Positions 15,901 through 64,000 of a stretch of DNA of 64,000 bases are shown one piece after another. The notes beneath the pieces are model-generated. The model saw only the letters and a list, made by a program, of their open reading frames with translations. It searched no databases and had not been told where the DNA came from. The stretch is taken from NCBI GenBank assembly GCA_016125475.1, contig WGLR01000014.1, forward strand, positions 1-64,000, in the 5' to 3' direction. Position 1 is the first letter of the stretch. Every line of letters begins with the position of its first letter. This DNA comes from Betaproteobacteria bacterium (GTDB taxonomy: Bacteria > Pseudomonadota > Gammaproteobacteria > Burkholderiales > Ga0077523). A program made the position numbers and the translations under genes.

Positions 15901-17217
15901 CCCCTCTTCGTCGAAGAGGGGTTCGCCACGCGATTCGAACGAGCGCAGGGCGCCCGAGGCTGTCCGGGCGCGGTATCGCAGCCGGATGGGCCGGTGCGCC
16001 TGGGCAGACAGGGCGAGTTCCGTGCGGATCGCTTCCTGGTCGTCGGGCTCGACCTGAGCGAACCACTGCGCGGACCAGTCCGCGGTGTCCGGCACCCCGA
16101 AGACCTCGTAGCCCTGGCGGTTCGCGAACGTGAGCTTCATCTGGTCGTCCAGCCGCCACATCACGATCGGCGCGGCGTCCGCGAACTTTCGCAGCCGCTT
16201 CTCGTTGCGCGAGACCGCGTCCGCGATGACGGTATGGCGGCGCGAACGTGCCGCGAGCAGGCCGAACGTGAGCCACGCGAAGGCGAGCGACGTCGCGAGG
16301 CCGGGCACCGGGACGCGCCCCGGCAGTGCCTTCAGGCACGCCTGGTCGAACTGGCGATCCGACGCGAAACCGAGCATCCATCGGCGGCCGCCCTGCTCGA
16401 TCGGGACGGACGTGTCGAACCGCGCCGGTCCCGTGTCCGCCGCGTTGCGCCGCACATCGACGATGCGTTCACCGTGCGGCGCCGACGCCGCGCGCAGCGT
16501 CACGCGACCGAGGGCAGCCGTCTGGCCGAGGACGTCGGTGAGCAGCGGTCGAAGGAGCACACTGCCGGCCAGCACCAGGGCGCCGGCGCCGTCGGCGGAA
16601 GCGGCGGAACCCCGCCCCGCCGGGCCGACCGGCACGAAGAACACGAGACCCGGGGACGAGGATGGCTGCTCGCCGGTGGAGAGATCGAGAATGCCGGTCG
16701 AGGCGACGTCACCTTCGCCGAGCGCGCGCGCCAGCGCGGCGCGGCGTTCTGCCTCCGGGGAGGCGATCGCGAAGGCCGGGCGGCGGGGGCCGGGCGTGTC
16801 GACCTGCAGGACGTGATACGTGACCGGACCGCGCCCCGCCACGCGACCGTCGACCTGAAGGAGTGCGATTCCGGCCGACTCCGGATGGCGCCGCGCGAGA
16901 TCGAGCTGCGCCGTGTAACGCCGCCAGCCGCGGACTTCGGCGTCCGGACCGTTCGCGACGAGGTGGGCCACTACCCCGCGCAGAATCTGTTCCTCGGCCG
17001 CCAGTCGCTGTTCCACGCGGCGCGTCACCTCGCCCGCGGCACCGAGGAAGTGATCGCGAAAGCTCTCCTCGACCGCGCGGCGTTCCTCCGTGCGGACGAT
17101 TACGCTCGACGTCGCACCGGCTGCAAAGATGGCCATGGCGACGGCATGGCGGAACCAGCGGGTGTTCAGGGTCGCGTGCAGACCGTGCTTGTGTCTGTCA
17201 ATGGGCTGGGCGGGCAC
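12916..17217 (-). CDS. CHASE-PAS-GAF sensor histidine kinase (kinase 3)
   Basis: 1433 residues, first of the kinase 3-kinase 2 pair. An N-terminal helix ([17 protein letters not shown]) precedes a CHASE-like periplasmic domain ([16 protein letters not shown] to [13 protein letters not shown]) and a second helix ([19 protein letters not shown]). Then come four PAS units, a GAF-like unit ([15 protein letters not shown]), a PAS_3 unit ([24 protein letters not shown]), HisKA ([13 protein letters not shown]) and HATPase ([26 protein letters not shown]). The PAS_3 unit closely resembles the last PAS of kinase 1 (GTWSWDIRS...[11 protein letters not shown]), so these genes share modules. The start is a GTG with no clear ribosome-binding site. 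No response regulator is adjacent. Confidence 0.93.
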
Positions 17218-18247: not shown

Positions 18248-19039
18248 TCAGGGTCCGAGCGCGACACAGGCGACCGACGCATCGTTGCGGCCCATGTACC
18301 GGCTCTGGCGATCGAGGGACTGACTCACGAGCACGTCCGCGACGCCCTGGGGTTCGCCGCACTCGAGCAGGACCCGGGCAAGCGCGTCGTCGCCGAGCAC
18401 CTCCCAGACGCCATCGGTCGCGAGCAGGAAGCGGTCGCCCGACCTGCAGGGTCCGTCGGCGAAGTCGACCACGAGGTGGGTGTCGAGGCCGAGTGCCCGC
18501 TTGGGCACGTGACGCAGGTCGTGCCGCGGCCAGCAGTGGTCGGTCGTGAGCTGCTTGAGTGCGTCGTCGCGTCGCACGTACACGCGCGTGTCGCCCACGT
18601 GGGCTAGGTAGTAGTGATCGGACCTGAGTATCAGGACGGACAGCGTGGTGAGCGCACCGTCCGCGTCGCGCCGGCGCGCGTTCTGGGCCCAGAGCCAGTC
18701 GTTGCAGCTCCGGAGCACGCGGTCGAGCGCCTTCGCGGGCGTCCAGCTCGCGGCCGTCGCGTAGTAATCCCTGAGCACGGCGTTCACCGCCAGCGCGGCG
18801 GCCTGCCCGCCGGAACCGTCACCGCCGACGCCGTCGGCGATCGCGATCGCGAGCCCGTGGGACGCGAGTTCGTCCGCTGCAGGACATGCGACACCGACCC
18901 GATCCTCGTTCCACTTGCCCGGGACCGACCGGCTGGCAATCCCGACGCGCGCACGGACCGGATCCGCTCCGGCGAGCGCGAACTCGACGCTCCCGGGTGC
19001 CGGGCCGACCGACTCCCGCTCCGATTCCCTTGTCATCAT
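18248..19039 (-). CDS. PP2C-type protein serine/threonine phosphatase
   Basis: Metal-dependent phosphatase expected to dephosphorylate Ser/Thr on proteins in the cytoplasm. Family motifs run in order over 263 residues: NEDRVGV (metal-binding Asp), AIADGVGGDGSGGQAAALAV, YLAHVGDTRVYVRRD, DRFLLATDGVWEVLGDD and GRNDASVACVAL at the C-terminus. Compact bacterial PP2C enzymes of this size (Stp1/PppA-like) usually oppose an Hanks-type kinase, but no such kinase and no type VI secretion genes are nearby. The track ORF extends to 19588 with low-complexity Arg-rich sequence that looks non-coding. ATG 19039 has GCGGAG five bases upstream. A second ATG follows immediately at 19036. Confidence 0.93.
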   Translation of the reverse strand: MMTRESERESVGPAPGSVEFALAGADPVRARVGIASRSVPGKWNEDRVGVACPAADELASHGLAIAIADGVGGDGSGGQAAALAVNAVLRDYYATAASWTPAKALDRVLRSCNDWLWAQNARRRDADGALTTLSVLILRSDHYYLAHVGDTRVYVRRDDALKQLTTDHCWPRHDLRHVPKRALGLDTHLVVDFADGPCRSGDRFLLATDGVWEVLGDDALARVLLECGEPQGVADVLVSQSLDRQSRYMGRNDASVACVALGP

Positions 19040-19382
19040 GACGACTCCGCAACGACTGTCCGTGGTCGCGCCTCGAGCCAGGGAGCAGCCCCCCCGACGC
19101 CTTCGCGACCGTCTGCCCTCCCGTGCAACGGATATGCCACCCGGCTGGCGCGAGCCCGCATCGGGTGGCGGGAAGGATGTTGCCGACGGGAAGCGTGCGG
19201 GCCGCAATGGCACGCGGTGCCACTGTCCGGACCGGACCGGGACTTCCCGCAAGGCGGAGCGGCGTGAGGAGGACCGGAAACGACCCTGGGCGGCGATGCC
19301 CTGAAATGGTGCCTGCGCACCCGAATGGACAAGGTCGGACGACCGGTCCCGCTGCCCGTGGCGACGCCGGGCCGGAGACCGT
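19040..19382. other. 343-base intergenic gap with no recognised gene
   Basis: This lies between the PP2C start and the stop of the DUF2007-like gene, both on minus, so it must contain the PP2C promoter if the two are not co-transcribed. Open frames through it are Arg/Gly/Ser-rich and show no motif. I see no hairpin with a T-run. Confidence 0.6.
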
Positions 19383-19685
19383 TCAGAGACTCTCTCCGCA
19401 ACGCCAGCACACGTCGAACGCCCCGGGATTGACCTCCCCGCAGGCGCGGCAGGTCCGATCGGGCCGCCGCGACTGGCTCTCGAGCGAGCGCAGGACTTCC
19501 CGCGCGCGCGTCTCGTCCGATGCCTCGCGCAGCCAGAGTTCCGGGTACGCGTGGGTGAACGGAATCTCGCCCAGCCCTCCCTGCGCATTCTCGTTGAAGA
19601 CGTGCACCTCGATGCCCGCCTGCGCGAGCAGGTCCCGAAACATGTGGGCCTCCGGCAGGGAGGCGCAGGTACAGAGGCGCTGCAT
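19383..19685 (-). CDS. DUF2007-like protein with C-terminal zinc ribbon
   Basis: 100 residues. The N-terminal half (CTCASLPEAHMFRDLLAQAGIEVHVFNEN... ELWLREASDETRAREVLRSLE) resembles the DUF2007 putative signal-transducing fold. The C-terminus carries two Cys pairs (CRAC and CWRC) spaced like a zinc ribbon. Function is unknown. ATG 19685 has GGGAGA about ten bases upstream; the track start at 19931 is not supported. It sits 112 bases downstream of the radical SAM gene on the same strand and may be read with it. Confidence 0.75.
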   Translation of the reverse strand: MQRLCTCASLPEAHMFRDLLAQAGIEVHVFNENAQGGLGEIPFTHAYPELWLREASDETRAREVLRSLESQSRRPDRTCRACGEVNPGAFDVCWRCGESL

Positions 19686-19797
19686 GGTCCCGGGCTCTCC
19701 CGTGAGTCGTTGTCCGTTGTCGTCTTCCACCCGCGAACGGGTCCGTCCCTGCCGGATTATGCGCCGTGACGGGGACCCGCGGCCCGCGGCCGCGCCG

Positions 19798-20892
19798 TCA
19801 GAACAGGTCGAGTTGCCCCCCGGACGACGGTGGCCGGAACCGGCTGCAGTCGAGCGGCGGAACCGCGCCGGCCAGGCCCAGGCGACGCCGCGCGTTCCCG
19901 AAGCGTGCGGCGAGCAGCCGTGCGAGTTCACCCTCCCCCGTCATCCGCGATCCGAACCGGGGGTCGTTCTCGCGCCCGCCACGCATCGCAGCGAGGCGCT
20001 GCACGACGTGCGCCGCCTTCAGGGGGTAGTGGTGGTCGAGCCAGGCGCGGAACAGGTCGCCGATCTCGTGGGGCAGGCGCAGCAGCACGAAGCCCGCGGT
20101 GACCGCGCCGGCGGCCGCGGCGGCTTCCAGCACGTGTTCCACGCCGTCGTCGGTGAGGAACGGGATCACCGGGGCGACGAGGACGCCCGCGGGCACCCCC
20201 GCCTCGGTCAGTGCACCGATCGCCTCGATCCGTCGCGCGGGGCTGCTCGCACGGGGTTCCAGGCGGCGGGCCAGGCCGTGGTCGAGCGTCGTCACGCTCA
20301 CGTGGACACGGCACAGCCCCTCCGCGGCCAGCGGGGCGAGGAGGTCGATGTCCCTGAGGACGCCGGCGTTCTTCGTGACGATGGTGAACGGGTGCCGACA
20401 CGCGGCGAGCACTTCCAGTACCTCCCGCGTGATGCCGAGCGGGCGTTCGACGGGCTGATAGGGGTCGGTGTTCGCCCCGAGCGCGATGGGTTCGCACCGG
20501 TATCCGGGCTTCGCGAGCGTCTCGCGCAGGAGGGACGCCGCATTCACCTTCGCGAAGAGCCGGGTCTCGAAGTCCAGCCCCGGAGACAGGCCGAGATAGG
20601 CGTGGCTCGGCCGCGCGTAGCAGTAGATGCAGCCGTGCTCGCAGCCGCGATACGGATTGACGGACTGGCTGAACGGAACGTCCGGCGAATCGTTGCGCGA
20701 GAGGATGCCGCGCGCGGTCTCGTGCGTGACGACCGTGCGCACCGCACGGGGCGCGTCGTCGTCCGGATCCCGTGCCCAGCCGTCGTCCCAGGGTTGGCGC
20801 AGGACGGACTCGAACCGGCCTTCGGGGTTGCAGGTCGCGCCGCGTCCCCTGGCGGGTCCGCCGCCCCGCCCGTCGTGGAGTTTCATGACCAT
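19798..20892 (-). CDS. PA0069-family radical SAM protein, likely SOS-regulated
   Basis: 364 residue radical SAM protein. The iron-sulfur motif CEHGCIYC lies near residue 84, preceded by SQSVNPYRG and followed by YARPSHAYLGLSPGLDFETR, which is typical of the PA0069/Rv2578c group related in its core to spore photoproduct lyase. The substrate is not established; a DNA-repair role is often suspected. A near-perfect LexA box abuts the start codon, and I recall PA0069 being listed in the Pseudomonas aeruginosa LexA regulon, which fits. There are two possible starts, ATG 20892 and ATG 20886, and neither has a clear Shine-Dalgarno, so the mRNA may be nearly leaderless. The track ORF 19928..20926 is a shadow. 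Confidence 0.93.
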   Translation of the reverse strand: MVMKLHDGRGGGPARGRGATCNPEGRFESVLRQPWDDGWARDPDDDAPRAVRTVVTHETARGILSRNDSPDVPFSQSVNPYRGCEHGCIYCYARPSHAYLGLSPGLDFETRLFAKVNAASLLRETLAKPGYRCEPIALGANTDPYQPVERPLGITREVLEVLAACRHPFTIVTKNAGVLRDIDLLAPLAAEGLCRVHVSVTTLDHGLARRLEPRASSPARRIEAIGALTEAGVPAGVLVAPVIPFLTDDGVEHVLEAAAAAGAVTAGFVLLRLPHEIGDLFRAWLDHHYPLKAAHVVQRLAAMRGGRENDPRFGSRMTGEGELARLLAARFGNARRRLGLAGAVPPLDCSRFRPPSSGGQLDLF

Positions 20893-20911
20893 ACTGTATT
20901 CTTGTACAGTC
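20892..20911 (-). promoter_or_regulatory. LexA (SOS) box
   Basis: TACTGTATTCTTGTACAGTC contains CTGT-N8-ACAG exactly and closely follows the E. coli SOS consensus TACTGTATATATATACAGTA. It overlaps the first base of the radical SAM start codon, so bound LexA would block transcription initiation or early elongation of that gene. Confidence 0.88.
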
Positions 20912-20948
20912 TGTCGCGAGGAGCAAGCGGAACGGACCCGAAAAACGA

Positions 20949-20972
20949 AAGACCCCTCCGCAGAGGGGTCTT
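20949..20972 (-). terminator. Intrinsic terminator of the alpha/beta hydrolase gene
   Basis: AAGACCCCTC-CGCA-GAGGGGTCTT forms a perfect 10 bp stem. On minus it is followed by TCGTTTTTCGG. It lies 45 bases past the hydrolase stop, and upstream of the radical SAM gene's SOS box, so it insulates that gene. Confidence 0.88.
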
Positions 20973-21016
20973 CGTGCCTGCGGCGACCGGGCCGGTCAGC
21001 CGCGGAGCAACGGCGT

Positions 21017-21865
21017 CTACGCGATCTTCATCATGCGCAGGGCCGCGCGGAACAGTTCGGAATCCGGATTCGCGAAGGTCTCGAGGATGCTGAAGTGGTT
21101 GTCGCGCGGGCACGGGACGTCCTCGGCGATCACCTGCGCCCAGCGTTCACGGATCAGGGCGTGCTGCTGCTGGAAGCCTTCGATCTCCCTGCCGCCGACC
21201 GTGACGTAGAACGGGGCATCGGTCGCAGGGGGCATGAACGCGGGGCTGCACTTGATCGCGGACTCCTCCGTGAGCCGCACGTCCGTATTGACGCTCGGCA
21301 CGTTCAGAAGCGCGGTGAGATCGTAGAGCCCGCTGATCGACAGGGCACCCTCGACCACCTTGTCCGGCAGGTCCGGCGAGTACTCGGGCCACTGCGCGGC
21401 CGCCATCATCGCGGCCAGGTGTCCGCCCGCGGAATGGCCCGCCACGTAGGTGCTGTTGCCGAAGGCGCCGTAGCGGCTGCCCGTCCGGTAGAGCCAGGAC
21501 GTGGCCTTGAGCATCTGCTGCACGATCTCCTCGATCGTGACCGACGGGCAGAGCGCGTAGTTGGGCATCGCCACAGTGACCCCGTGCTTCACGAACTCGT
21601 TCGCGATGAAGGAGTGATCCCGCTTGTCCAGCGAACGCCAGTACCCCCCGTGGATGAAGATGAGAAGCGCCCGACTGCGCCCCTCGGCGCGGAAGATGTC
21701 GACCTTCTCCATCGGGTGATCGCCATAGGGGATGTCGAGATCGCTGTCGAGTTCGTCCCGGGCACTCTTCGACAGCCGGGTCCACCGGTCGAAGTGCTGG
21801 GCATACTCCGGCACCGCTGCGCGATTGTTGTAGCGCCGTTCGAATGCCGCGGTGTAGTCGTCCAT
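21017..21865 (-). CDS. Alpha/beta hydrolase, arylformamidase/carboxylesterase-like
   Basis: 282 residue alpha/beta-hydrolase fold enzyme. The oxyanion-hole motif IHGGYWRSLDK lies near residue 77, and the nucleophile elbow GHSAGGHLAAMM marks the catalytic Ser. A late DNHFSILE gives the catalytic His. HGGYW with an N-terminal YNNRAAVPEY segment is typical of proteins annotated as arylformamidase-like esterases; the kynurenine link is only suggestive, since no other kynurenine-pathway gene is near. The track start at 22015 is unlikely; ATG 21865 follows GGGGGA at about ten bases. It has its own terminator. The 257 base gap to the divergent sulfurtransferase is AT-richer near 21940-22000 and includes a GGGCATGCCC palindrome, so promoters for both genes probably lie there. 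Confidence 0.85.
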   Translation of the reverse strand: MDDYTAAFERRYNNRAAVPEYAQHFDRWTRLSKSARDELDSDLDIPYGDHPMEKVDIFRAEGRSRALLIFIHGGYWRSLDKRDHSFIANEFVKHGVTVAMPNYALCPSVTIEEIVQQMLKATSWLYRTGSRYGAFGNSTYVAGHSAGGHLAAMMAAAQWPEYSPDLPDKVVEGALSISGLYDLTALLNVPSVNTDVRLTEESAIKCSPAFMPPATDAPFYVTVGGREIEGFQQQHALIRERWAQVIAEDVPCPRDNHFSILETFANPDSELFRAALRMMKIA

Positions 21866-22122
21866 GTTAACGAGGTCCCCCTGGAAATGGGCCGGATCGC
21901 GCCGCGCTCGGCGTCGGCCGCCCGGGCCTGCTGCCCTCACAAAAGCGTTATTGAACCTAATTGGGGCATGCCCTGTCCACTCCGGGTTACAAATAGATCC
22001 TCTAATCAGAGACATGCGGGTTCACGGCCGGAGATTTCGGGGTGCCCCGGAAGTTGCCTCGCACGCACCGCACACGCAAAATCGGCAATCCGGCCAACTA
22101 GACCTGCAAGGGAGTCAGACCC

Positions 22123-23010
22123 ATGAACGACGCCAGCGCCGCGTCCGGCTTCATCGTTTCCGCACAGTGGCTCGCCGATCACCTCGGCGATCCGGGTGTG
22201 GTCGTGCTGGATGCGACCACGCACCTTCTGCCGCGCCCCGTCGATCCGACGCCCGACGAGCCCTACGACGTCGTGTCGGGCCGGGCGGACTTCGAGAAGG
22301 GACACATCCCGGGCGCGCAGTTCGTCGACATCGACGGCGAGATCTCGGACCGGTCGAAGGACACCCACTTCATGCTGCCGCCGCCCGAGCAGTTCGCCGC
22401 GGTCATGGCGCGCCTCGGGGTCGGTGACGACACGCTGGTCGTCTGCTACGCGACGGCCTTCCACTGGTGGGCCACGCGGCTCTGGTGGATGCTCAGGGTC
22501 TTCGGCCACGAGCGTGCGGTGGTGCTCGACGGTGGTTTCCAGAAATGGGTCGCGGACGGACGTGCGGTCGAGACGGGTTCCGGCAAGGCGCGGGCCCGCC
22601 AGGTCTTCACGGCGCGCTTCGACCCCGATCTCGTCGCGGACCGCGACGACGTCCTGAAGGCGGTCCGCGAATCCGGGGCCTGCGTCGTCAATGCGCTGCG
22701 CCCCGAGCAGCACGCCGGCGGCGGCACGACCAACTACGGCCGGCCCGGCCACATCACCGGCAGCATCAACGTCGCCGCGTCGAACGTGGTCCGCGCGGAC
22801 AACACCTTCCGGCCGCTCGACGAACTGCGGGGGATGCTGGCCGACCACCTCGCGAAGCCCGAGGTGATCACCTACTGCGGCGGCGGCATTGCCGCGTCCA
22901 GCATCACCATGCTGCTCACCATGTTCGGCCACCGCGGCGTGCGGCTCTACGACGCGTCGCTCTCCGAATGGGCCCGGGACGGCTCGCTGCCCATGACCAC
23001 GGCCGGCTGA
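22123..23010 (+). CDS. Two-domain rhodanese-like sulfurtransferase
   Basis: 295 residues with two rhodanese domains, the size of thiosulfate or 3-mercaptopyruvate sulfurtransferases. The N-terminal domain ([12 protein letters not shown] to [17 protein letters not shown]) and the C-terminal domain ([16 protein letters not shown] to [18 protein letters not shown]) are clear. The C-terminal active-site loop is CGGGIAAS, which differs from the textbook CGSGVTA (mercaptopyruvate) and CRKGVTA (thiosulfate) loops, so the sulfur donor is uncertain. ATG 22123 follows AAGGGAG at a good distance. It is divergent from the alpha/beta hydrolase and 94 bases upstream of the ABC operon. Confidence 0.92.
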
Positions 23011-58637: not shown

Positions 58638-58825
58638 GGAAGGAAAGCAAGAGGAAGAAAGGGGCGAGGCGACGCTCCGCTGATCCATTCGGCGCATGAA
58701 ATGACTTCATGGCGTCAAAAGACTGCATTGACGCGTCGAGATAATCGGATCGGGGCCATGCACCGTCAGCTAGCCACCAGAAGAATATGTTCCCTGTCTT
58801 TCTATACACTTTCGGGAGATCTTCC

Positions 58826-60445
58826 GTGACCAACTTCAAGCTTTCCGCCATCGCACTCGCGATCGCCGCCGTCGCACCGGCACACGCCGCAAGCATCACG
58901 GGTCCGAGCAGTTCCCAGGCTCCGTACCTGCAGGCCGTGGCCCCCAACGTCGACATCGGTTCCGTCCTCACGTCGGGCGACCTCGTCGGTTCGTACCGCA
59001 TGGGCGGCATCCCCGACGGCCTCGGTGCGTTCGACAACGGCAACGGCACGTTCACGCTGCTCATGAATCACGAACTCGGCGACACGCTCGGCGTGACGCG
59101 CGCGCACGGCGCCATCGGTTCGTACGTGTCCGAGTGGGTGATCAACAAATCCGACTTCTCCGTCGTGAGCGGACGTGACCTCATCCAGAGCGTCTACACC
59201 TGGGACACCGCGACCCAGTCCTCCAGCCTCACGCCCACGGTCGTGTCGTTCAACCGGTTCTGCTCGGCAGACCTGGCCCCCGTCTCCGCGTTCTACAACC
59301 CGACCTCGGGTCTCGGCACGCAGTCGCGCATCTTCATGAACGGCGACGAGAGCGGCTCGACCGGCCTTGCGATGGCGCACGTGGCCACCGGCGCCGGCGC
59401 GGGCAACAGCTTCGTGCTGGGCAAGTTCAACACGGACACGAACGGTTCCGGCGGAACGGACCACGGCGGCTGGGAGAACCTCCTCGCGAACCCGCTCGCG
59501 CAGGACAGGACCGTCGTGATCGGCAACAACGACGGCGGCTCGGGAATCATGAGGAATGCGCTCGCGGTCTACGTCGGCACCAAGACGAACGCCGGCACCG
59601 ACGCCGACCGCGCGGGTCTCACGAACGGCACGACGAAGTTCGTGAACCTCGACGGCTTTGCCGCCGAGGCCCCGGACGCCGATCGCCACACGGCCATCAC
59701 GAACGGTACGCGTTTCACGCTCAGCGACTCGGCCTCCACGGTGTTCTCGCGTCCCGAAGACGGCGCCTGGAACCCGAACAACCCGAACGAGTACTACTTC
59801 GTGACGACCGACACGCGCGACACGACGGACCTCACGGGCGGTACGAGCAAGGGCGGCACGCGGCTCTGGAGACTCACCTTCGACGACATCACGAACCCTG
59901 ATGCCGGCGGCAAGATCGACATCCTCATCGACTCGTCCAACATGCCGGGCGGCGTGGGCGTCGACAAGCCGAACATGTTCGACAACATCTCCGCGAACGC
60001 GGACGGCACGATCACGTTGCTCGAGGACGTCGGCGGCGCCGATCACAACGGCAAGGTCTGGCAGTTCGACCCGGCCAGCGGTCAGCTCACGATGCTCGCG
60101 AAATTCGACCCCGCGCTGTTCGGTGACATCGTGAACGGCTCGTTCGTCGCCGGTACGCACACGAACGACGAGGAAACGTCCGGCGTGATCGACCTCACCA
60201 ACGTGCTCGGCTTCAACGATGGTGCGTCGTACCGTCTGCTCGTTGCGCAGGACCACTCCGATGCCCAGCACCTGATCGACATCGGCGCCATGGATCCGAA
60301 CGCGAATCCGGCCGAGATGATCGAGGGTGGCCAGCTCCTGGTCATGCGCATCGCGCCCGTACCCGAGCCCGAGACCTACGCGCTGATGGCCGCCGGCCTC
60401 GGCATCGTCGGTGCCGCGGCTGCGCGTCGTCGCAAGCACAAGTAA
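58826..60445 (+). CDS. PEP-CTERM protein, distant PhoX/DUF839-like body
   Basis: 539 residues. Signal peptide MTNFKLSAIALAIAAVAPAHAA, then a repeat-rich body of NGDESG, HGGWENLLANP, NHELGDTLG, FSRPEDGAWNPNNPNEYYFVTTD and TLLEDVGGADHNGK that recalls beta-propeller phosphatases; the EDGAW and NHE landmarks resemble those of PhoX but less closely than the 56427 protein. C-terminal PEP-CTERM tail: VPEPETYALMAAGLGIVGAAAARRRKHK. GTG 58826 has GGGAG eight bases upstream; the track's 58787 start would be less suitable. Function is inference. Confidence 0.82.
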   Translation: MTNFKLSAIALAIAAVAPAHAASITGPSSSQAPYLQAVAPNVDIGSVLTSGDLVGSYRMGGIPDGLGAFDNGNGTFTLLMNHELGDTLGVTRAHGAIGSYVSEWVINKSDFSVVSGRDLIQSVYTWDTATQSSSLTPTVVSFNRFCSADLAPVSAFYNPTSGLGTQSRIFMNGDESGSTGLAMAHVATGAGAGNSFVLGKFNTDTNGSGGTDHGGWENLLANPLAQDRTVVIGNNDGGSGIMRNALAVYVGTKTNAGTDADRAGLTNGTTKFVNLDGFAAEAPDADRHTAITNGTRFTLSDSASTVFSRPEDGAWNPNNPNEYYFVTTDTRDTTDLTGGTSKGGTRLWRLTFDDITNPDAGGKIDILIDSSNMPGGVGVDKPNMFDNISANADGTITLLEDVGGADHNGKVWQFDPASGQLTMLAKFDPALFGDIVNGSFVAGTHTNDEETSGVIDLTNVLGFNDGASYRLLVAQDHSDAQHLIDIGAMDPNANPAEMIEGGQLLVMRIAPVPEPETYALMAAGLGIVGAAAARRRKHK

Positions 60446-60526: not shown

Positions 60527-60771
60527 CCATTCATGGTTCCGCCCGTCTGCCACACCCGCACTCGGCGACGTGCGGCGTCAGGTCTCCTCATGTCACCGCC
60601 TTCTCCCCGAGTAAGTCTGCGGAAAGCGCGGCTTCATTCCGGATACATAGTCAAAACCTAGAGTGATCGCGCGGCAGCCACTTGCACGGCTCGAGCGTCG
60701 GAAACGGCACACGCGTTGTCGCGAACGGGCATGCCGCATCTTCGCAGAGGTCAACCGATCAGGAGAACCGA

Positions 60772-62610
60772 ATGATCATGAGTGGACAATTCAAGCTTCA
60801 CCGGTGCGCCATCGCGCTCGCCGCCGTCTGGGGCGTCATGGCGCAGGCGCACGCAACGACGACCCCGATCGAGCACGTCATCGTGGTCGTTGGCGAGAAC
60901 CACACGTTCGACAACGTGTTCGGCGTCTATCGCCCGCATCGCACGCAGTCGATCATGAACCTGCTTTCAGAGGGCATCGTGAAGGACGACGGCACGCCGG
61001 GCCCGCGCTTCCAGGTCGCTGCCCAGCGCCCCGCGACCCAGACGGGCAGCTACTCGATACAGCCAACGACCGGCGCGCCGTATGCCTCGCTCCCGCAGCC
61101 CGACACGACGTACGCGACCGGACAGCCCGGAAATTCGCCGGACCCCCGGTTCCCGGCCGACATGCCCAACGGGCCGTTCCAGATCACCCGGTACGTGCCC
61201 TACAGCGCGTTCATGGGCGACCCGATGCACCGCTTCTTCCAGATGTGGCAGCAGGTCGACGGCGGCAGGAACGACCTCTTCGCGTGGACTGCGATGACGG
61301 CCGGCATCGGCAATCACAACGATGGCTTCGGAACGGGACCCGACGACACCCACCAGGGCGGTGTCGCGATGGGTTTCTACAACATGGAAACGGGTGATGC
61401 GCCGCTGTTCAAGGCGATGGCCGACAACTACGCCATCAGCGACAACTATCACCAGGGCGTGATGGGTGGCACGGGCGCCAACTTCCTCATGCTCGTGACG
61501 GCCGACGCGGCCTTCTACAACGTGGGTGGCACGGCGACCGTTCCCCTCACCGCCATCAACATGTATGGCGTCACCGCGAGCCAGGTCGAGAACCCGAACC
61601 CGCAGGCAGCCGGATCGAACACCAACTGGTACACGGAAGACGGTTACCGGGGCGGCTCGTACGTCAACTGCGCGGACGAGTCCCAGCCTGGCGTGGGCGA
61701 GATCGCGAAGTATGTCCGTGCGAACGGCGCCAGGACCAATTGCGCGCCCGGCCACTACTATCTCCTGAACAACTACAACCTCGGCTACAAGGCCGACGGG
61801 ACACCGGTCGACCTCACGGCGAGCCCGTTCACCCTGCCCCCGCAGCCCGCGAGCCTGCCCACGATCGCAGACGAACTCTCCGACAACGGCGTTTCGTGGA
61901 AGTATTACTCGGGGGGGCGCGGCAACGGCACGAACACGAGCGGTGACTATTGCGGGATCTGCGATCCTCTCACGGGGTTCACGTCAATCATGACGGACCC
62001 GTCGAAGCGCGCGAACCTCCAGGACGTCAATTCGCTCTATGCGGACATCGCATCGGGCAACCTTCCGTCGGTCTCGTTCGTGCGTCCGCCCGAGATCATG
62101 GCCGGGCACCCCGCGAACGCGACGCTCCCGCTCTACGAGAACTTCTCGGCGGACCTCGTGAACATGGTGCACAGCCACCCGGATCTCTGGAAGTCCACCG
62201 CGATCATCATCACGACGGACGAAGGCGGCGGCTACTACGATTCGGGCTACGTGCAGCCGGTGGACTTCTTCGGCGACGGCACGCGGATTCCGCTGATCGT
62301 CGTCTCACCATACGCGCGCAAGGGCCACGTCGACCACGTCTACAACGATCACGCGTCGGTGCTCAAGTTCATCGAACACAACTGGGGGCTTGGCCCGCTG
62401 TCTTCCCGCAGCCGCGACAACCTCCCCAACCCGGTGCAGTGGGGCACGAGCTACAAGCCGCAGAACGCGCCGGCAGTCGGCGATCTCATGACGCTGTTCG
62501 ACTTCAGCAACTATCGCGACAATGCGCCCGCAATCACGGTCTCGCAGTCCGACGGACGCGACCGTGACGAAGGCGAACGTCGCGAGCACGCCTGGCGTCG
62601 TCACCGCTAA
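60772..62610 (+). CDS. Exported phosphoesterase (acid phosphatase/phospholipase C-like)
   Basis: 612 residues. Signal peptide (CAIALAAVWGVMAQAHA), then the phosphoesterase family core: IEHVIVVVGENHTFDNVFGVY (metal and nucleophile region), SDNYHQGVMGGTGANFLML, ITTDEGGGYYDSGYVQPVDFFGDGTRIPLIVVSPYARKGHVDHVYNDHASVLKFIEHNWGL. Family members hydrolyse phospholipids or phosphomonoesters. The C-terminus (DGRDRDEGERREHAWRRHR) lacks PEP-CTERM features. AGGAG precedes ATG 60772; the track start 60682 is upstream of it. It closes the phosphorus-related cluster. Confidence 0.9.
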   Translation: MIMSGQFKLHRCAIALAAVWGVMAQAHATTTPIEHVIVVVGENHTFDNVFGVYRPHRTQSIMNLLSEGIVKDDGTPGPRFQVAAQRPATQTGSYSIQPTTGAPYASLPQPDTTYATGQPGNSPDPRFPADMPNGPFQITRYVPYSAFMGDPMHRFFQMWQQVDGGRNDLFAWTAMTAGIGNHNDGFGTGPDDTHQGGVAMGFYNMETGDAPLFKAMADNYAISDNYHQGVMGGTGANFLMLVTADAAFYNVGGTATVPLTAINMYGVTASQVENPNPQAAGSNTNWYTEDGYRGGSYVNCADESQPGVGEIAKYVRANGARTNCAPGHYYLLNNYNLGYKADGTPVDLTASPFTLPPQPASLPTIADELSDNGVSWKYYSGGRGNGTNTSGDYCGICDPLTGFTSIMTDPSKRANLQDVNSLYADIASGNLPSVSFVRPPEIMAGHPANATLPLYENFSADLVNMVHSHPDLWKSTAIIITTDEGGGYYDSGYVQPVDFFGDGTRIPLIVVSPYARKGHVDHVYNDHASVLKFIEHNWGLGPLSSRSRDNLPNPVQWGTSYKPQNAPAVGDLMTLFDFSNYRDNAPAITVSQSDGRDRDEGERREHAWRRHR

Positions 62611-62775: not shown

Positions 62776-63396
62776 TCACGACGAGGCGGACTCCCCTGCT
62801 CGCGGGGGCTCGCACAGGTCGACCTCGAGCACCTCGTCGCCGCCGGACGTCCTCGCTGCCGTTTCGGTGGCCGCCCGGATCACCCTGACTCCGACGGTGA
62901 CGCCCTGCGCAAGCGCGGCATCGCGAACGCGCACGAGATCCGCGTGCTCCGCCTTGACCGCGACGAGCCGCTCGCCCGCCCGGATCTCCTTGATTCCCAC
63001 CTGCTCTTCCAGGATGACCGCCGGCAGTCGGACACGCAGACGGCGCCGGGTCGACGTGATGTCGAAATGACGGTGCCGGGACTCCAGCACCCGATAACCC
63101 CAGACACCGAGATCGAGCCCGAGGATCAGCGCAATGCGCTCCTCGAGCGAGGCGTCGACGTCGACGAGCAGCACGTGCCCGGGGCGCCCCTTCTTCCCGA
63201 GGCTCGCAAGGACCTGGAGGTTGCGGGCGCCGGCGGCGTGAAGGCGCTCTGCGACGTCCTGGAGCACTTCGCCGGTGGCATCGTCCACCTGCACGAGCAT
63301 GAGAATCGTGTCAGCCACGGCAGACGGTGTTCCGGCGACGCGCAGGAGCGCCGTCCATCCGGGCGAAAGAGGTGTGCCGCTGCGGGCGTGCTTCAC
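62776..63396 (-). CDS. LarC C-terminal-domain-like protein (DUF111)
   Basis: 206 residues. TILMLVQVDDATGEVLQDVAERLHAAGARNLQVLASLGKKGRPGHVLLVDV and GLDLGVWGYRVLESRHRHFDI match the C-terminal half (LarC2) of the nickel-pincer cofactor synthesis protein LarC, including the A-x(n)-KKGRPG pattern. The LarC N-terminal half is absent from this ORF. GTG 63396 lies three bases past the upstream stop, so the pair is translationally coupled. No larA, larB or larE was seen in the window. Assignment by eye only. Confidence 0.6.
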   Translation of the reverse strand: MKHARSGTPLSPGWTALLRVAGTPSAVADTILMLVQVDDATGEVLQDVAERLHAAGARNLQVLASLGKKGRPGHVLLVDVDASLEERIALILGLDLGVWGYRVLESRHRHFDITSTRRRLRVRLPAVILEEQVGIKEIRAGERLVAVKAEHADLVRVRDAALAQGVTVGVRVIRAATETAARTSGGDEVLEVDLCEPPRAGESASS

Positions 63397-63399
63397 TCG

Positions 63400-64000
63400 T
63401 CATGGCGCGTGCCGCGCGATGCGTGCCGCCATTCGGGCAGCCGCCTCCGCACGCTGTTTAGCACCGGGAATTCCCGCGCTCACGAACGCGCCCGCGACCG
63501 CGGCCTCGGCGGCTTCCTCGGGTGGCGCGACCCCGAGCGCGACCGCCATGGCGGCGGGCACGGTCACGTTCTGGATCACGTTGCCCGCGACCAGGAGTTC
63601 TCCGACCGCCGGTGCCGCGAGCGTCACCGCGGGAGCGAGTTCCGCGAGTTCGCCGGTCGACACACGCGGGACGATGTCGTCGACGAAGTGAGGCAGACGG
63701 GTGGTGACGCCATCGACCTCCACTTCGACATCGATCGACGGATCGAACGCGAGCCAGCGCCGCGCCATCCTGCTCGTGCGGCGTGCGCCGGCCTCCACGC
63801 GCGTGATCCGGATCTCCACCGGCTTTCCGAGCGTTCCGGCATGGCGCACACCGAGCCGCCGTGTGATCGTCTCGAGTCGCTCGCGATCGAGTTCCTCCAC
63901 GACGTCGCGGACCGACGATCCAGCGGTCAGGCGGTCGTAGGCCAGGGTCGCGCGGTGCATCAGCGCGGACGTCCGACCCGGCTCGGTCGCGGCCAGGAGA
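63400..64000 (-). CDS. Unrecognised protein, N-terminus beyond window edge
   Basis: About 200 residues visible; the frame stays open to the edge (LLAATEPGRTSALMHRATLAYDRLTAGSSVRD), so the track's ATG at 63960 may be internal. Visible sequence includes RITRVEAGARRTSRMARRWLAFD, LPHFVDDIVPRVSTGELAELAPAVTL, AGNVIQNVTVPAAMAVALG and a C-terminal Ala/Arg helix (GAKQRAEAAARMAARIARHAP). I do not recognise the family. It is immediately upstream of the LarC-like gene and probably in one operon with it. It does not resemble the usual LarC N-terminal half. Confidence 0.6.
   Translation of the reverse strand, partial: LLAATEPGRTSALMHRATLAYDRLTAGSSVRDVVEELDRERLETITRRLGVRHAGTLGKPVEIRITRVEAGARRTSRMARRWLAFDPSIDVEVEVDGVTTRLPHFVDDIVPRVSTGELAELAPAVTLAAPAVGELLVAGNVIQNVTVPAAMAVALGVAPPEEAAEAAVAGAFVSAGIPGAKQRAEAAARMAARIARHAP

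Follow-up and report, generated by a model that had tools for sequence, protein, structure and literature searches.

What does the C-terminal domain of LarC do when a bacterium encodes it alone, directly behind a gene of no recognized family? The question is raised by the right end of a 64,000-nucleotide stretch of the genome of a Betaproteobacteria bacterium (assembly GCA_016125475.1, contig WGLR01000014.1, positions 1 to 64,000; hereafter the window), where an initial annotation had placed a stand-alone LarC2-like domain three bases after the stop of an unrecognized gene. LarB, LarE, and LarC are established as the proteins that synthesize the nickel-pincer nucleotide (NPN), the cofactor on which the 2-hydroxyacid racemases and epimerases of the LarA superfamily (PF09861) depend, and in Lactobacillus it is likewise established that LarC1 and LarC2 are made from two reading frames. 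Two readings of the upstream gene had been offered: it might encode a partner of a different kind, not linked to LarC2 before, or a LarC that has diverged. Attention had also been drawn to the ribosomal frameshifting known for some LarC1/LarC2.

The LarC2 assignment itself was borne out. On the minus strand, an open reading frame (ORF) extends over 62776-63396; it matches the NCBIfam model NF052512 (nickel_LarC2) over its cut-off (2.3e-14), and PF01969 aligns to it with only its C-terminal third (profile positions 240-363 of 375). The three-base spacing is correct for GTG 63396, the earliest possible start in this frame relative to the upstream stop (63400-63402), but the likely real start lies further in. 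In relatives, the LarC2 gene begins at the residue corresponding to GTG 63318, which makes 62776-63318 (minus strand, 180 aa) the probable true gene; the 26 codons that the longer frame has ahead of this start are not conserved.

Evolutionarily, the stand-alone LarC2 proteins form a clade of their own, separated from the LarC2 domains of complete LarC proteins with 100/100 support and by a branch of about 5.9 changes per site. This separation identifies the stand-alone LarC2 as its own protein and not a local LarC fragment, and it rules out a recent break-up of the host’s own LarC. A profile built from seven relatives matched, among solved structures, the LarC2 structure 6bwo (4.9e-6) and, more closely than any other, the uncharacterized MK0293 of Methanopyrus kandleri (PDB 3c19, 2.7e-9), which by chain length is also a free-standing LarC2-type protein, though an archaeal one. 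Identity to LarC is 23-26%, and the alignment shows D12, D13, E17, a KKGR motif, R76, K110, K122, and D127 to be invariant between the two. The protein is thus homologous to the C-terminal domain of LarC and keeps the charged residues they share, but it lacks a LarC1 domain, is encoded with the upstream gene, and is additional to a complete LarC. LarC is described as cytidylylating the precursor using CTP, ahead of nickel insertion, in a study that cites earlier work for this step (PMC11796402), and since the LarC2-like protein keeps residues invariant with LarC, it probably binds CTP or a cytidylylated cofactor intermediate.

Reading the contig (C20) beyond the right edge of the window, as had been proposed, completed the upstream gene. 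Its C-terminal 199 codons occupy 63400..64000 (minus strand) and the frame continues to position 65202, giving a complete ORF of 600 aa (C20 63400-65202). Homologues are 56-79% identical (79% in a same-genus relative, 67% in another Burkholderiales family, and about 56% in Rhizobiaceae), and differences from the nearest relative are concentrated in third codon positions, which differ ~3.5 times as often as first and second positions; on these comparisons, the ORF is a genuine and strongly constrained gene. Its description as unrecognized was accurate, in that neither single sequences nor a family profile gave anything above noise in Pfam, NCBIfam, or PDB. Structurally, AlphaFold2 yielded a pLDDT of 43.7 for the full protein (three sequences) and a usable model for the C-terminal 199 residues (pLDDT 79.6, pTM 0.74), for which Foldseek returned nothing significant (best E 0.33 in the PDB and 0.20 among viral proteins); no relatives were found in viral contigs. 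Within the family, H195, H248, H284, H339, C341, and nine lysines (K129, K152, and K156 among them) are invariant, all candidate metal, cofactor, or substrate contacts, and such residues would be suitable for a putative cofactor site. A divergent LarA was considered and rejected as the identity of this protein: Lar_N (PF09861) had no match in seven family members, and hhalign of the family against LarA gave a probability of 0.15%, so that a relation to LarA, if any, is undetectable by profile comparison.

The same comparisons bear on a further possibility, a split LarC in which the upstream protein would be LarC1 in a divergent form and frameshifting might join the two parts. The two-frame genes of Lactobacillus offer a precedent, and in the window both ORFs happen to lie in one frame, but this frame relation varies across relatives, which argues that frameshifting is not involved. 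Moreover, hhalign of the 600-aa family against LarC gave a probability of 0.25%, Pfam Ni_insertion is absent from every family member, the LarC2 clade is separate, and a complete LarC adjoins the pair in Rhizobiaceae and exists elsewhere in the window’s genome (C11:85242-86468). No fusion of the 600-aa and LarC2 genes occurs among the junctions examined; apparent LarC fusions in relatives (open frames of 902 and 783 aa) proved to be long GC-rich open frames and not fusions. We consider the split-LarC explanation refuted for practical purposes. With neither LarC1 nor LarA related by profile and no family match for the 600-aa protein, the suggestion of a divergent LarC fails, whereas that of a previously unlinked partner survives.

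The junction itself (63319..63399, minus strand) spans 81 bases if LarC2 starts at 63318. In the relatives, judged from the junction sequences of eight loci, the two genes overlap or lie 2-7 bases apart, and the stop/start overlap seen in several suggests translational coupling of the pair. In the window, a 30-codon ORF (63311-63403, minus strand) begins with an ATG that overlaps the stop codon of the 600-aa gene and ends with a stop overlapping GTG 63318, the likely LarC2 start; in relatives, it is the start of LarC2 that overlaps the 600-aa stop or comes directly after it. The small ORF may be a coupling device, a decay product, or a small indel.

The partnership is strict. At every locus found, the LarC2-like gene comes after the 600-aa gene, the loci being those of the window’s genome, Ga0077526, SJ887, and TGS_PRO36 in Burkholderiales, and plasmids of R. 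tropici CIAT 899, CCGE531, CCGE532, CB3090, and Ciceribacter thiooxidans. Profiles of the 600-aa protein and of the stand-alone LarC2 each match the same four of 399 Burkholderiales genomes, and among 14 close relatives an extra LarC2 is present only in the three genomes that have the 600-aa gene. The family is rare in the genomes sampled: it was found in one of 399 genomes of the phylum (the window’s own) and in none of 398 genomes of a Rhizobiaceae-like family (assigned to Rhizobiaceae only indirectly). Since the contig scan relied on patterns that miss the Rhizobium sequences, distant relatives in other phyla may have gone unnoticed.

It is in Rhizobiaceae that the genomic context points to a function. 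On five plasmids the pair (55-57% identity) heads larC-larE-larB, in the order 600-aa gene, LarC2-like gene, larC, larE, larB, followed in the Rhizobium plasmids by a Ni/Co transporter gene (NiCoT); LarE and LarB of these operons were confirmed over cut-off. Other Rhizobium plasmids, among them that of R. ruizarguesonis, have the order larA-larC-larE-larB, and the pair therefore occupies the place of larA. Ten plasmids of Rhizobium and Ciceribacter have larB; five of these also have larA, the other five have the pair, and none has both or neither. The Lar_N model, which found larA on a control plasmid, had no match on four complete plasmids that carry the pair. Sitting where larA normally sits, the pair is a candidate for a second kind of NPN-using enzyme. 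A common origin is probable for the Rhizobiaceae operons, and the replacement of larA may therefore have happened once. Within them, larE occupies two separate ORFs in CIAT 899 (L012:18610-19014 and 19051-19416) and likewise in CCGE531 (L015:15544-15948 and 15985-16350), through either gene decay or a real split, and is whole in CCGE532, CB3090, and Ciceribacter. We found no literature linking the lar genes of Rhizobium to the 600-aa gene.

From this gene context, we infer that the 600-aa protein is an NPN-dependent enzyme, or failing that an apoprotein that holds NPN, unrelated to LarA and with the LarC2-like protein as its dedicated partner, a reading to which we give somewhat better than even chances. 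LarB, LarE, and LarC, whose genes are present, would make NPN; the LarC2-like protein would load it into the 600-aa protein or serve as its subunit; and the 600-aa protein would act with it on what is probably a small, polar metabolite, transferring hydride in the manner of LarA. Some molybdenum enzymes use a cytosine dinucleotide form of their cofactor. A comparable proposal here, that the 600-aa protein would be the first NPN enzyme without the LarA fold and would use a cytidylylated (dinucleotide) NPN made or held by the stand-alone LarC2, seems to us improbable.

Some observations count against an NPN enzyme: the pair stands apart from the lar genes in the Burkholderiales genomes, and the window’s genome encodes LarA-domain proteins. 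The check for larA, larB, and larE proposed by the initial annotation was positive, with all of them on another contig (C11), where larA-like, larE, and larB genes lie beside the complete larC. LarB is present in all four Burkholderiales genomes with the pair; three of them were tested for a full LarC, and each has one. Lar_N proteins of the window’s genome number three, on three contigs: C11 (L004:7191-11425), C22:201192-201680, and C23:18578-19189. That on C23 is a classical LarA, and the other two are divergent, being 62% identical to each other and, for one of them, 21% identical to the classical form; one of the divergent genes adjoins larC-larE-larB.

Such LarA-domain proteins are what would be expected if the pair belonged to the biosynthesis side, as an auxiliary NPN nickel insertase, carrier, storage, or repair factor, with a LarA encoded elsewhere as the user. 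LarC2 does, after all, belong to a biosynthetic enzyme, and the finding that larA is absent where the pair is present holds for the Rhizobium plasmids. Relatives without the pair, however, commonly have larB and larC, and since they possess the same pathway genes, NPN synthesis does not require the pair, which is better explained as an NPN user. That larA and the pair are mutually exclusive on Rhizobium plasmids, and that every operon in Rhizobiaceae includes a complete LarC of its own, also speak against a biosynthetic role, which we regard as unlikely, if still a serious contender. The distance of the pair from the lar genes in Burkholderiales, together with the far divergence of the stand-alone LarC2 from LarC, would fit a different alternative, in which the LarC2-like protein takes part in some other CTP- or metal-dependent reaction, the 600-aa protein works with another metal or cofactor, and the Rhizobiaceae linkage is due partly to chance or to co-regulation of nickel genes. 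Overlapping genes within one operon, the exact substitution of larA, and a nickel transporter in the same operon are hard to reconcile with this, and we give it little credence.

Returning to the candidate NPN enzyme, its wider neighborhood provides weak hints to its reaction. TGS_PRO36 and the Rhizobiaceae have in common, near the pair and in differing orders, genes for a GcvA-like LysR regulator (64-68% identity), a flavin amine-oxidoreductase (44-48%), a zinc alcohol dehydrogenase (69%), and an MFS transporter (72% or 47%), at L010:5058-10221, L012:77-4495, L013:3092-7254, and L014:9601-10827 and 18256-22611. A ChrR-type cupin joins this recurring module in Rhizobiaceae, and R. tropici and its close relatives additionally have a PatB-type C-S lyase, RidA, and an amino-acid ABC transporter near the pair. 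Of the four Burkholderiales genomes with the pair, three lack the alcohol dehydrogenase, so the module is optional, and a catabolic role defined by its alcohol dehydrogenase, flavin oxidase, LysR, and MFS genes was rejected; an optional catabolic module surrounding the candidate enzyme is what the arrangement suggests. Beside the pair in the window, the genes for a PEP-CTERM protein (58787-60445) and a phosphoesterase-family (PF04185) protein (60682-62610), both on the plus strand, are not conserved with the pair in relatives. Upstream of the 600-aa gene in the same genome lie genes for a HAD-type hydrolase (C20 65747-66376; L003:5748-6377) and the 2-methylaconitate isomerase PrpF (C20 67014-68156; L003:7015-8157; over the TIGR02334 cut-off), and no conservation of their linkage to the 600-aa gene was seen.

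NPN proteins other than LarA have been predicted from genomes with larBCE and without larA (PMC11796402), and we found no literature that names one, though such proteins are postulated. The orphan larB/larC/larE sets of cyanobacteria (PMC11796402) resemble the Rhizobiaceae operons in being NPN gene sets without larA that point to a non-LarA user; no candidate user is named there, whereas the Rhizobiaceae operons themselves contain the gene for one. Like LarA, the proposed user stands at the head of larC-larE-larB, and unlike LarA, it is about 600 rather than about 430 aa long, bears no sequence or profile similarity to that superfamily, and is always followed by a stand-alone LarC2. The 600-aa family is thus a specific, small, and testable candidate, in which larA has been replaced within otherwise ordinary lar operons and a private LarC2 always comes along. 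If the 600-aa protein does bind NPN, the chemistry of this cofactor would not be confined to one superfamily, and stand-alone LarC2 could serve as a marker of non-LarA NPN enzymes elsewhere, with the neighborhood of MK0293 and the cyanobacteria as possible places to look.
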